DNA from: Rhizobiaceae bacterium CPCC 101076
GTDB lineage: Bacteria; Pseudomonadota; Alphaproteobacteria; Rhizobiales; Methylopilaceae
DNA: 64,000 bases
Reading direction: 5' to 3'
Assembly (NCBI GenBank): GCA_003347645.1
Contig: QDFX01000004.1
Span: forward strand, 186,001 to 250,000
The notes under the pieces were generated by a model, which was given only the letters and a program-made list of their open reading frames with translations, did not search any database and was not told where the DNA came from. Made by a program: the position numbers and the translations under genes. Of this stretch, positions 45,007-50,315 are shown one piece after another. Position 1 is the stretch's first letter, and each line of letters opens with the position of its first letter.

Positions 45007-45010
<4 letters not shown>

Positions 45011-46164
45011 TTCTGCATCGGCTCCGCGTGACCCGACGAGATGGCGAAGCGGGCGGTCTCGCCGGGCAGGGAATCGAACAGGGCTGGGTCGGCGCCGGTC
45101 ATCCAGACCTGCGAGCCGAGCTGCTGCAGGCGCTCATAGAGCGCGCGACGGCGCTGCGGATCGAGATGGGCGGATACTTCATCGAGCAGAGCAACGGGCG
45201 CCGAACCGGACAGCCTTGCGACGAGGCGGGCATGCGCCAGGACGAGGCCGAGCAGCAGCGCCTTCTGCTCGCCGGTCGAGCAGCGCGCCGCGGGCGCCTG
45301 TTTCCGACCGTGGCCCACCGACAGATCCGAGGCGTGCGGACCCTCGATGGTCCGTCCCGCCGCGCGGTCGCGGTTGCGAAGGTCACGGAGGCGACCGCGG
45401 TAGGCGTCCTCGACATCGGCGGCGTTGCCGCCCTCGATCTCTCCTTCCATCCAGCCGCCGAGGGAAATCTCGGCGTGTGGGAAGGCGTCGTCATCGTCGC
45501 GGGTCTCGGCGATCAACGCGGAGAGACGGCCGACCGTGTCGATTCGGGCCGCGGCGGTGGCGACGGCCAGTTCCGCGACCTCGCGCTCGACGGCGTCGAG
45601 CCAGCGAGGGTCCGAGCCGGGTTCTTCCAGAAGCCTGTTGCGTGAGCGAAGCGCACGTTCGAAGGCGCTGACCCGCGTGCCATGGTCGGGGTCTACCGCG
45701 AGCACCAGGCGGTCGAGGAAGCGGCGGCGGTCGCCGGCCGAACCGCTGAACAGACCGTCCATGCTGGGCGTCAGCCAGACGATGCGGAGGTGGTCGGACA
45801 GCGCACCCGCACTCGGCGCGTTGGCCCCATTGATGCGGACCTTGCGGCCGCCTTCGCCTTCGCCTTGCTCCGTCCCGGTGCCGATCTTCGCTTCGCCGAA
45901 TGCGCCTTCAAGATCGGCTGAGACCGTCCAGCCGCCGGGCCCTTCCGCACGCGAAAGTTCGGGCAAGGTCGCGCGGCGAAGGCCTCGGCCGGGCGCCAGC
46001 ATGGAGACGGCTTCGAGGATATTGGTCTTGCCGGCACCATTCGGCCCAATAAGCGCAACATCCCGGCCGCCCGTCACGATGTCGAGCGTGGGATGATTGC
46101 GGAATTGGGTAAGGCGGAGCCGGTGAATGGCGACCCGCAGTGGAGCGGAATCCGTCGCCGTCAC
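45007..46164 (-). CDS. recF: DNA replication and repair protein RecF
   Basis: SMC/ABC-like ATPase of 385 aa that loads RecA at single-strand gaps. The Walker A motif is GPNGAGKTN at 40-48, and the ABC signature-like and Walker B segments (STGEQKALLLGL, PVALLDEVSAHLD) are near 285-325. The start is GTG 46164, overlapping the dnaN stop by GTGA. Its stop overlaps recQ by ATGA, so dnaN, recF and recQ appear to be one transcription unit. Confidence 0.95.
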
Positions 46165-47279
46165 ACCCGCATCGGCATCAGGACATAAAGGGCCGACGAG
46201 CCCTCCTTGTCCTGGATCAGGGTCGGCGAGCCTGGATCGGCCAGCTTCAGCAGCGCCGTGTCGTTGTCGATCTGGGCGGCGATGTCGAGCAGGTAGCGCG
46301 AATTGAAGCCGATATCGAGCGCGCTCGCGCCGTAATCGACCTCGATCTCCTCGGTGGCGCTGCCGGAATCCGGGTTTGTCACGGAGAGTGTCAGCTTACC
46401 GTCATTCAAGGCCAGTTTCACGGCTCGGCCGCGCTCGGACGAGATGGTCGAGACGCGGTCGACCGCACTGACGAATTCCGCCTTGTCGACGATCAGTTGC
46501 TTGTCGTTGCCGGCGGGGATGACACGGGCGTAATCCGGGAATGTGCCGTCGATCAGCTTCGAGGTCAGAACGACATCGCCGAGCGTGAAGCGGACCTTAG
46601 TCGCCGAAAGCTCGATCAGCACCGAGCCGTTCGGATCCTCGACGAGGCGCTGCACCTCGGAGACCGTCTTGCGCGGTATGATGACGCCCGGCATGCCAGC
46701 CGTGCCCTTCGGCGCCGGCATCTCTACCCGGGCGAGGCGATGGCCGTCGGTCGCGACCGCACGAAGGACGGAGTTTCCTTCCACTTCCATCGCGTGGAGG
46801 AAGATGCCGTTCAGATAATAGCGCGTCTCCTCGGTCGAGATCGCGAACTGGGTCTTGTCGATCAGTCGCTTCAGATCCGAGGCGGACAGCTCGAAACGGA
46901 TCGGCAGATCGCCCGCCGCGAGATCCGGAAAATCTGATTCCGCGAGCGTCTGCAGCGTGAAGCGCGAGCGGCCGGCGCGGATGGTCAGCGTACCGGTATC
47001 GCCGGTCTGCTCGAGCACGACCTGCGAGCCGTCCGGCAGTTTGCGGACGATGTCATAGAAGGTATGCGCCGGAACGGTGGTCGCGCCGGCATCGGCGACG
47101 TCGGCCGTGGCGGTCTCGACGACCTGTAGATCGAGATCGGTCGCCTGGAGGCGAAGTCCGTCGGAACCTGCGCGGAGCAGAACGTTGGACAGGACCGGAA
47201 TCGTCGTCCGGCGTTCAACGACACGGTGGACGTGCCCGAGCGATCTCAGGAGCGCCGCCCGCTCAAGGGTGACCTTCAT
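46161..47279 (-). CDS. dnaN: DNA polymerase III beta subunit (sliding clamp) DnaN
   Basis: Ring clamp of the replicative polymerase, 372 aa, with three repeated clamp folds (about 1-120, 130-245, 250-372). MKVTLERAALLRSLGHVHRVVERRTTIPVLSNVLL and the C-terminal LYVLMPMRV are typical. It lies 128 bp after dnaA, and a strong hairpin is in that gap. Confidence 0.98.
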   Translation of the reverse strand: MKVTLERAALLRSLGHVHRVVERRTTIPVLSNVLLRAGSDGLRLQATDLDLQVVETATADVADAGATTVPAHTFYDIVRKLPDGSQVVLEQTGDTGTLTIRAGRSRFTLQTLAESDFPDLAAGDLPIRFELSASDLKRLIDKTQFAISTEETRYYLNGIFLHAMEVEGNSVLRAVATDGHRLARVEMPAPKGTAGMPGVIIPRKTVSEVQRLVEDPNGSVLIELSATKVRFTLGDVVLTSKLIDGTFPDYARVIPAGNDKQLIVDKAEFVSAVDRVSTISSERGRAVKLALNDGKLTLSVTNPDSGSATEEIEVDYGASALDIGFNSRYLLDIAAQIDNDTALLKLADPGSPTLIQDKEGSSALYVLMPMRV

Positions 47280-47406: not shown

Positions 47407-48924
47407 TCACTCAGAAAGCATGCGTTTCAGGAGATCGACGTCCTCGGCCAGCGAATTGTCCGACTTCAGGAGCCCGTCGATTTTGCGCACGGCGTGCAGC
47501 ACCGTGGTGTGGTCGCGGCCGCCGAAACGCCGCCCGATCTCCGGAAGCGAGCGCAATGTCAGCACCTTGGCGAGATACATCGCGATCTGGCGCGGACGGA
47601 CGACGGTCGCGGTGCGGCGGGCCGACAGGATGTCGGCGCGCGATACATTGTAATGACGGGCGACGATGCGCTGGATGTCCTCGATCTTGACCCGCTTCGG
47701 TTCGCGATTGCGGACGAGATCGCGCAGCGCCTCCTCGGCCATTTCCAGCGTGATCTGGGTGCCGGTCAGCGTGTTGTGCGCCATCAGGCGAGTGATGGCA
47801 CCTTCGAGGTCGCGGCCGTTCGCGGTCACCGTGCGGGCGACATAGCTGAGGACGGAGGGAGGAACGTCGAAGTTCGGATGCGCCTCCTGAGCCGCGGCGA
47901 GGCGGTTCTTCAGGATCTGGAGGCGAAGCTCCTCATCGAGCGAACCCATCTCGACGGCGAGGCCGCCGGCCAGGCGTGAGCGAAGGCGCTCGTCGAGGCT
48001 TTCAAGCTCCGCCGGAGGGCGGTCGGCCGCGACGACGACCTGGCGGCCGGCATCGATCAGGGCGTTCAGCGTGTGGCCGAACTCCGCCTGGACGGTCTTG
48101 CCCTGCAGGAACTGCACGTCGTCGATGACGAGCATGTCGATCCCGCGAAGCGTCTCCTTGAAGGCGAGCGAGGTCTGGGCACGAAGAGCCGAGACGAAGC
48201 CGAACATGAAGCGCTCTGCCGTCAGATAGACGACCCGGCGTCCGCCCGCTTCAGCAGCGCCGGCTATCGCATGCAGAAGATGCGTCTTGCCGAGGCCGAC
48301 GGCCGAATGGATGTAGAGCGGATTGTAGCGGATCGCCTCCGACGGGCGTGCCGAGGCGACTTCCCGGGCGGCGGCATGGGCCAGCGCGTTCGAGCGGCCG
48401 ACAAGGAAGCTGTCGAAAGCCAGACGATGGTCGATCGGCGAGCCGACGAGCGCCGCGGTGGTCGGATCGGCGGTCGGACGCTGGACGTCGATGTGCTCCG
48501 GCTTTGCTGCGGCAGGCTGAGCAGCCGCGCCGCGAGCAGGCTGCGGACGCACGCCGACGGTACGCAGTTCGAGCTCGATCTGGCGGATATCGCCGTGCTC
48601 GGCCGAAAAAGCGCGCACGATGCGCTCGGCGTAATGCGACTGAATCCAGCTCTTCAGGAAACGAGTCGGCACGGAGAGGTGCGCCATGCCGGAGTCCGAC
48701 ACGCGCTCCAGTTCGATGCGGGCGAACCAAGACAGATAGATGTCCTCGCCCAGTTCCGCGCGCAGGCGTTTCTGAGTCCGCTGCCAAGCGGACTCGAAGT
48801 CACCGCCGGCGGGGAGGTGAGCTGGCGCGGACATGGAAGCCTCCTGAAAATGTTCACTAGAGTCGAAGCGGGCGGCGTCAAGATGAGCCCGGCCCGCAGG
48901 GTCGAACGAAAGGTCTTCTGACAT
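47407..48924 (-). CDS. dnaA: Chromosomal replication initiator DnaA
   Basis: AAA+ initiator binding DnaA boxes at oriC; about 505 aa. Domain I is near 45-120 ([24 protein letters not shown]), a variable Ala/Pro-rich domain II follows to about 160, and domain III carries Walker A GLGKTH at 210-215 and DDVQFLQGK. Domain IV ends with the DnaA signature [19 protein letters not shown] 48924 has GAGGAT at about 7 nt. A TTG at 48939 overlapping the rhodanese gene is an alternative. The rhodanese gene stop is only 11 nt upstream, so the two are probably cotranscribed. Confidence 0.98.
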
Positions 48925-48935
48925 GGCGGCGATCC

Positions 48936-49382
48936 TCAACTCTGTATCCAGGGGAGTTCGCTGGCCTTCCAGCCAACGACTGCACCCCGATGCCGGTCAT
49001 CATTCAGCGGGCCTTCGAAGCCGCCGCTGATGTTGAAGCTGTTCGGAAATCCAGCCCCAACGGCGGCTACTGCCGCAGCACTGCTGCGGACGCCCGACCG
49101 GCATAGAAAGTAGAGCGGCGTTTTCTCATCCAGGCCGCGGCTAGCGAGTTCCGCCGCGAGTCGGTCGAGGAAATCTCCCACGACCTGCATCGTCGGCCAG
49201 ACCTGCCATTCAAGGAGGATGGGTTCCTTGCCCATCCCACCCAGGTCCGGAATTCCGACGAAACTCCATTCGGCCCTCGTCCGCACATCAACCAATTGCG
49301 CCTCGCGTGTGCGGGCCAAGTCTTGATAGGCGGACGGCGCATCAACATTTCCGGCATGACCCGGATTGTGATCTTGATCCAT
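48936..49382 (-). CDS. Rhodanese-like domain protein
   Basis: Single rhodanese domain protein of 148 aa. The active-site Cys is in [14 protein letters not shown] (about 95-108); the N-terminal [17 protein letters not shown] is the conserved CH2A-type region. The enzyme would transfer sulfane sulfur, but the partner is unknown. ATG 49382 has AGGAGCT 6 nt upstream. It lies directly before dnaA and after the 0.66 kb regulatory region, so it would be the first gene of the dnaA transcript. Confidence 0.88.
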
Positions 49383-49993
49383 TCTAGCTCCTAAGCGCGT
49401 AATAGAACGCGCCTCACCCAAGATTTATGAATTGTTTTTTGTACGCAGCACTAGGGTAAGGGGAGCAACAGCACGCAGATACAACTATCCCCACGCAAGA
49501 ATCCGGAAGCACCCCTGCTAGCGGAATCCAGACACATCTTCTCCATCCCCAGAATCTGTAAGGGCGTTATACGCTTGCACATGACGTGAAGTCTTCGAGG
49601 TCCCGGCCCCGTCGACAGGGCTCAAGATAGGCATGCCGGGTCGGACGGCGCAACACGATTCAGCGCCCGAATCGAGCCACGGTCTTGCCGCAATCTGACT
49701 CGCGGCGTTTCGGCAAACTGCAAATGCCTGAGTTTTCGAGAGATTCACAAAAACGTCGCGTAAGCATCGCTCTCGCAAAAATTTCTAAACGATGACCCTT
49801 GTCGGGAAGTTCTTCTTAGGAGACTCGCGGTCCATCTGACGTCTTGCCGCTAAGTCAATGAAATATATGAGTAATTTTTACTCGGTCAGCCGCGCGATTC
49901 AGCGTCTCGCTCAGGATTCAGCGGAATCGCGAGTCAAGCGGTTTGCGCCGCTTCGTGACTATGTGTGACGCTTCCACAACTGACATATGACGC
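49383..49993. promoter_or_regulatory. Gene-free, GANTC-rich region upstream of rhodanese-dnaA; candidate dnaA control region or origin
   Basis: No credible coding frame is present in this stretch. Twelve GANTC sites, the CcrM methylation target, occur at 49499, 49524, 49552, 49657, 49669, 49697, 49742, 49822, 49896, 49915, 49924 and 49931. Chance would give about one or two at this GC content. The 9-mer GATTCAGCG occurs three times (49657, 49896, 49915). An AT-rich patch at about 49855-49883 contains the inverted repeat GAGTAA-TTT-TTACTC. I see no consensus DnaA box (TTATCCACA); only poor matches such as CTATCCCCA near 49486. It must contain the promoter for rhodanese-dnaA. Confidence 0.55.
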
Positions 49994-50026
49994 AAAACAA
50001 AAAGCCCGGCACAAGGCCGGGCTTTT
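49994..50026 (-). terminator. Rho-independent terminator of rpsT
   Basis: Read on the minus strand, GCCCGGC and GCCGGGC pair around a 5-nt loop, extended by four A-T pairs, followed by TTTTTGTTTT. It begins about 23 bp after the rpsT stop. Confidence 0.88.
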
Positions 50027-50048: not shown

Positions 50049-50315
50049 TCAGGCGTTGAGAGCTTTCACGCGAGCCGAGAGGCGCGAGACCTTGCGGGAC
50101 GCGGTGTTCTTGTGAAGAACGCCCTTCTGCGCGGCGCGCATGATTTCGGGTTGGGCGGCCTGGAGCGCAGCGGAGGCGGCCTTCTGGTCGCCGGAGGCCA
50201 GGGCTTCCTCGACCTTCTTGAGGAAGGTGCGCATCCGGCTCTTGCGAGCGCCGTTGATCTCGGTGCGGCGCTCGATCTTGCGAGCCGCCTTCTTGGCCGA
50301 GGCAGTATTGGCCAT
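50049..50315 (-). CDS. rpsT: 30S ribosomal protein S20
   Basis: Small basic 16S rRNA-binding protein, 88 aa, all helical. [21 protein letters not shown] and [21 protein letters not shown] are typical. It has its own promoter (50397-50425), a leader with a hairpin, and a terminator, so it is a monocistronic unit. The rpsT-dnaA neighbourhood is conserved in Hyphomicrobiales. Confidence 0.97.

Follow-up and report, generated by a model that had tools for sequence, protein, structure and literature searches.

Caulobacter carries few GANTC sites at dnaA. The methylation state of such sites was reported to affect directly the transcription of dnaA, ctrA, ftsZ and mipZ in this bacterium, and across the Alphaproteobacteria GANTC was described as under-represented overall and over-represented in intergenic DNA (PMC3973325). 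By immunoblot, the level of the Caulobacter DnaA protein was found to be unchanged without CcrM (PMC3667746). A second described setting is the repABC loci of secondary replicons, which usually carry an excess of GANTC, and in Agrobacterium CcrM was found to promote the expression of repABC-Ch2 and GcrA that of repC (PMC11514494). In the GATC-based system, hemimethylated DNA is the target of SeqA, which prefers areas dense in GATC (PMC2865523), and sequestration of E. coli oriC and the dnaA promoter is named in the title of a reference within PMC8725594.

Less is understood about the coupling of dnaA expression to replication in Alphaproteobacteria outside Caulobacter, and a compact array of GANTC sites whose positions are kept among relatives, as described here, offers a directly testable region. 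Among the matches listed in a search of the titles and abstract openings of the open-licence literature, we found no earlier report of a GANTC cluster at dnaA. Brilli et al. scanned, for each gene of representative genomes (37 are named for the CtrA analysis), the 400 bp upstream and the initial 100 bp, and stated that methylation control was not derivable (PMC2877005). A scan of this kind would miss the array, because a rhodanese gene intervenes and the array is located ~660-1100 bp ahead of the likelier start of dnaA.

The stretch of DNA analysed here (64 kb; hereafter, the window) contains 12 GANTC sites within 437 bp (49499..49935, no strand assigned), starting at positions 49499, 49524, 49552, 49657, 49669, 49697, 49742, 49822, 49896, 49915, 49924 and 49931. 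These sites had been listed in a first-pass annotation of the window, and reading the sequence confirmed every start exactly as given. The surrounding genes are ordered on the minus strand as rpsT, terminator, array, rhodanese-like gene, dnaA, dnaN and recF. The rpsT gene, encoding ribosomal protein S20 (50049..50315, minus strand; NCBIfam TIGR00029, E = 1.6e-28), is upstream of the array and separated from it by its intrinsic terminator, found by a scan as an 11-pair stem followed by a T tail (49999..50026, minus strand); a similar hairpin is present in the aligned relatives. Downstream of the array lie the gene for the rhodanese-like protein (48936..49421, minus strand; Pfam PF00581, E = 1.4e-8), whose frame opens at 49421 and whose likelier start is the ATG at 49382, following AGGAG, and then dnaA (47407..48834, minus strand; NCBIfam TIGR00362, E = 3e-143), whose ORF opens at 48939 and whose likelier start is the ATG at 48834, following AGGAGG, both starts being read from the sequence. 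These are followed by dnaN (46161..47279, minus strand; TIGR00663, E = 2.2e-91) and recF (45007..46164, minus strand; TIGR00611, E = 2.2e-69).

The expectation of one to two sites per 437 bp given in the first-pass annotation was about right, and at the window's own density it comes to about one. GANTC is strongly depleted across the window (143 sites, whereas 100 dinucleotide shuffles averaged 411), and the array stands out all the more for it. When the window was scanned with a sliding frame of 437 bp, 12 sites occurred only at the array, the next separate peak holding 6 and the others 4 at most. The suggestion that this density is unusual also held when 437-bp windows were ranked over 450 kb of the same genome, made up of 250 kb of contig C33, which includes the window, and 200 kb of contig C1 (~12% of the 3.73-Mb genome): the array came first with 12 sites, followed by 6 and then 5 or fewer. 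No rival gap with a similar number of sites was found, since the gap of the array, with 12 sites, led the 77 crude, ORF-free gaps (200 bp or longer) drawn from the same 450 kb, the next holding 4. A second, weaker group of six GANTC sites (48642..48864, no strand assigned) lies over the dnaA start and the 5' part of the coding sequence, and forms the second-densest 437-bp window in the 450 kb sampled.

We searched 41 genomes for rpsT and found it in 40, including 17 relatives from the same family. In all of these (17/17) the gap between rpsT and the rhodanese gene was syntenic, spanning 607-685 bp and holding 3-12 GANTC sites. The 13 genomes of a sister genus carry 7-12 sites per gap at similar offsets. 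Conservation in close relatives, on which the first-pass annotation had staked its reading, is therefore seen in the family, though the three relatives from the array's own genus hold only 4, 3 and 6 sites in the gap, as compared with 12 here; so high a density is not the rule even within this genus, and the densest gap of the four own-genus genomes examined is that of the array species. The proximal block of the array, CTTGACTCGCGATTCCGCTGAATC (49915..49938, minus strand), holds three GANTC sites in steps of 7 and 9 bp, which are kept in two of the three own-genus relatives, and the TTGACTC within this block is present in 13/13 sister-genus gaps.

We aligned 11 of the 13 sister-genus sequences (mean identity 49.5%), two similar ones having been dropped. 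GANTC fell in the same column in 546/950 comparisons (57%), as compared with a baseline of 12.5% calculated from the outer letters of any pentamer, and this sharing is somewhat generous in that GANTC itself may help to steer the alignment. Five GANTC columns were each kept by 9-11 of the 11 sequences. The second-best shared pentamer, CCNGG (0.44), is largely the rpsT terminator, by reading of the alignment. Across the 18 gaps of the family, GANTC occurred 3.40-fold more often than expected (146/42.9), ranking first among the 16 palindromic pentamers. The array is a real, conserved feature.

These numbers bear on a neutral reading, by which GANTC is disfavoured in genes and tolerated in AT-rich gaps, so that a long gap gathers many sites. 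It draws on the intergenic over-representation already described in Alphaproteobacteria (PMC3973325), and the varying counts within the genus (12, 4, 3 and 6) would fit it. However, the family count exceeds the composition-based expectation 3.4-fold, no other sampled gap of 200 bp or longer in this genome has more than 4 sites, the sharing of site positions greatly exceeds the any-pentamer baseline, and CTNAG, another depleted pentamer, remains unenriched in the family gaps (ratio 0.65). We thus consider a neutral origin of the array very unlikely.

Beyond the family, we calculated the ratio of observed to composition-expected GANTC counts in two further sets of gaps. The ratio was 1.64 (217/132.4) in 47 gaps from other families of the order, third among the 16 palindromic pentamers, and 1.89 (126/66.8) in 39 gaps from other orders, first among the 16; 5/39 of the latter had no GANTC at all. 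The order set combines 12 loci with the usable part of 40 fetched stretches (5 showed no dnaA and no rhodanese gene in the part fetched), one of the resulting 47 gaps (G026) being cut off by the end of its contig ahead of the next gene; the other-order set comprises 40 genomes, one of them unusable. Both sets of 40 were hand-chosen, from 144 genomes with a match in the order and 109 in other orders. An excess of GANTC ahead of dnaA is therefore found widely across the class, and it is strong in this family. Where dnaA comes straight after rpsT, the ratio was 1.37 in the order (20 gaps) and 1.88 in other orders (23 gaps); where a rhodanese gene lies between them, it was 1.94 (26 gaps) and 1.89 (16 gaps), respectively. 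Since the excess persists in the absence of the rhodanese gene, it goes with dnaA.

The GANTC ratio of the genome background was 0.41-0.55 in three genomes. The comparison with other gaps covered three genomes, with a mean GANTC density of 1.64, 2.25 and 2.77 per kb, the last of these counting the array gap. In two relatives, G012 of the sister genus (400 kb sampled) and G008 (240 kb), no 437-bp window is denser than that of the dnaA gap, which holds 9 and 10 sites, respectively, the next holding 5. In G001, two other gaps exceed the dnaA gap, with 6 and 5 sites as compared with 4, and a 437-bp window away from it reaches 7.

The spacing of the sites carries a further signal. In the order and class gaps, GANTC pairs 9-12 bp apart numbered 33, as compared with 14.7 expected when positions were jittered, and 29 vs 13.6 when one gap per family was taken (82 gaps); with a correction for searching every 4-bp bin, the probability of such an excess by chance was at most 0.0015 in three versions of the null. 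In the order alone, some gaps of which (12 loci) were known before the test was framed, 21 such pairs were found vs 7.3 expected (43 gaps, one per family; 0/2000 simulations), while in other orders there was no excess (8 vs 6.3; 39 gaps, P = 0.30). Because it is confined to the order, the excess may reflect homologous pairs inherited within it. As a fraction of pairs in the same gaps, the 9-12 bp bin held 33/163 for GANTC, 6/27 for GTNAC and 4/21 for CANTG, these two controls having few pairs, and 0-13% for nine other control pentamers; in the background of three genomes, it held 18/138 of the close GANTC pairs. Longer steps (20-23 and 31-34 bp) were not significant in the order and class gaps. 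A phasing of 11 bp over the whole array was rejected: it is seen in the sister genus, but the offsets of the array modulo 11 are scattered, its own steps including 7, 9 and 12 bp without general phasing. That the dnaA control arrays of the order are made of helical-turn pairs read cooperatively by a putative hemimethylation-sensing protein, as an independent, CcrM-based counterpart of the Dam/SeqA lock on the dnaA promoter of E. coli, seems to us quite unlikely.

Short words extending beyond GANTC are also enriched. A-run words aside, the most enriched 7-mers of the gaps are TTGACTC (29/88 gaps vs 5.8 expected) and TTGAGTC (25/88 vs 5.3), and CTTGACTC occurs in 20/88 gaps vs 1.6 expected. Such words would be expected if methylation were incidental, the conserved elements being the sites of another regulator, or a leader RNA, with a motif that happens to contain GANTC. 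This alternative also finds support in TTTGCTGGCTA, a conserved block without GANTC that is present in 13/13 sister-genus gaps (L006-L013, L016, L018-L020 and L025), and in sra10, a 383-nt transcript described from the rpsT-dnaA gap of S. meliloti (PMC2245857). However, a TT flank accompanies only 7% of GANTC strand readings in the family and 18% in the order (as compared with 10% in other orders and a background of 2-4% in three genomes), the feature common to the kept columns is GANTC, and GANTC is otherwise depleted genome-wide, and we regard an incidental role of methylation as unlikely.

The motif of Caulobacter GcrA, YGAKTCK, was reported as one that can vary among species (PMC8725594). 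It accounts for 12.7% of GANTC readings in the family and 12.4% in the order, which is no enrichment over three genome backgrounds (10.8-14.1%), and for 20.2% in other orders. A -35 role for CTTGACTC, paired with a -10 at 17 bp, was discarded, as no -10 was found by eye. In several families of the order (loci L143, L161, L168, L172 and similar ones), an A-rich tract was seen by eye ~10-15 bp before TTGACTC on the minus strand.

The likeliest promoter of the rhodanese and dnaA genes is predicted at TTGCGC-N18-TATCTT (49624..49653, minus strand), as read from the alignments, where the sister genus has a comparable TTGCG-N17-TATC pair. It is a weak match to the consensus that was missed by a simple scanner, and because the scanner picked another weak site (49889-49862), we infer this promoter from conservation. 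The predicted -10 is positioned ~240 bp before the likelier rhodanese start, and a GANTC site (49657-49661) sits 3 bp upstream of the predicted -35. The TTTGCTGGCTA block of the sister genus precedes the predicted -35 by ~85-90 bp. Of the 12 sites, nine lie between the rpsT terminator and the predicted promoter, and the remaining three (49499..49556, no strand assigned) are downstream of it, in the putative 5' leader. These leader sites have no counterpart among the alignment columns that hold GANTC in at least 4 sister-genus sequences. In S. meliloti, the dnaA leader was reported as the target of a small RNA (PMC4414408); an Rfam search of the gap gave seven matches, every one below its gathering score. 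An additional promoter of dnaA itself may lie in the ~100 bp that follow the rhodanese gene.

According to the first-pass annotation, the array marked either a methylation-controlled dnaA control region or the origin itself. Its position, the synteny, the kept sites and the presence of CcrM and GcrA genes favour the first of these, and the GC skew speaks against the second. If the region were the chromosomal origin, GANTC sites would regulate its firing as at the Caulobacter origin, and several features are compatible with this: the region is AT-richer than its surroundings (52-54% vs 64% GC), dnaA is close by, methylation sites are dense, and the putative origin of Methylobacterium oryzae was placed upstream of dnaA (PMC4161386). 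However, the cumulative G-C curve of contig C33 reaches its minimum at ~175 kb, beside hemE (176,424-177,425), with the array ~60 kb away at 235.5 kb, on the rising arm of the curve; the curve is almost flat at 174-185 kb, which places the minimum to ~10 kb on the one contig of this genome examined. Over most of the window, the GC skew has a positive sign. In G008, a skew minimum also occurs at hemE and there is none at the dnaA gap itself, with a smaller dip ~12 kb past the gap and another skew low at the end of the examined stretch, while in G012 the lowest point in 160 kb around hemE is ~16 kb from that gene, on a shallow curve.

DnaA boxes with at most one mismatch were absent from the array region and from all 18 family gaps (18/18), a weak point against an origin here, since none were found in the vicinity of hemE (165-190 kb) either and the preferred origin at hemE lacks them as well. 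The boxes therefore do not decide the matter and the skew does: it supports an origin elsewhere, the array region is probably not the chromosomal origin, and we consider the opposite reading highly improbable.

Several observations accompanied the origin analysis. In the order and class gaps, 24 DnaA boxes with at most one mismatch occurred in 17/86 gaps, as compared with 9.65 in shuffles, and their presence there but not in the gaps of the family hints at differing dnaA autoregulation. A bin at 28-29 kb of C33 contains seven weak, two-mismatch DnaA-like boxes. In G008, dnaA is ~92 kb from hemE. In G012 (4.45 Mb), dnaA is found near 4.05 Mb and hemE at 2.15 Mb, 1.9 Mb apart, and dnaA is perhaps near the terminus, as judged from sparse sampling of the skew; its 9-site array is still kept.

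The genome encodes a CcrM-type enzyme, a 377-aa ORF with N6_N4_Mtase (PF01555) and RAMA (PF18755) domains that we assume to be specific for GANTC, as well as GcrA (PF07750, 189 bits). Taking these results together, we favour, with somewhat better than even confidence, the reading that the array is a cis-control region of the rhodanese-dnaA genes, methylation-responsive and made of CcrM substrate sites. Under such a model, CcrM would methylate the array sites late in the cell cycle. Because dnaA is ~60 kb from the inferred origin, the replication fork would pass it early, and the array would then be wholly hemimethylated until CcrM returns. A reader of the methylation state, most likely GcrA together with sigma-70 RNA polymerase, would alter dnaA transcription, and the output of dnaA would thereby be set once per replication round. 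Such a response would be made steep by the large number of sites and by the pairing of some of them at a distance of about one helical turn. Site density, kept positions and the ccrM and gcrA genes are shown, whereas the methylation, the promoter, the reader and the sign of its effect are inferred. The case of G012, in which dnaA is possibly far from the origin and yet nine sites are present, misfits a simple early-fork timer.

By analogy, the array is most likely related to the switch at the Caulobacter dnaA promoter, of which it would be a denser form. As in Caulobacter, GANTC sites are found upstream of dnaA and both CcrM and GcrA are encoded; unlike in Caulobacter, there are 12 sites in 437 bp, they are placed ahead of a rhodanese gene that precedes dnaA, and the related families show GANTC pairs separated by about one helical turn. 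The array also resembles the control regions of alphaproteobacterial repABC loci, in which a replication initiator gene likewise has excess GANTC in its control region, but those loci belong to secondary replicons and usually have the origin inside repC, whereas here the gene is the chromosomal dnaA and the origin is apparently elsewhere. With the dnaA promoter and oriC of E. coli, where GATC sites are bound by SeqA, the array shares densely placed methylation sites at an initiator gene, although both the methylase and the motif differ. If the proposed role is correct, it would suggest that methylation marking of the initiator gene arose with different enzymes in the Gamma- and the Alphaproteobacteria.
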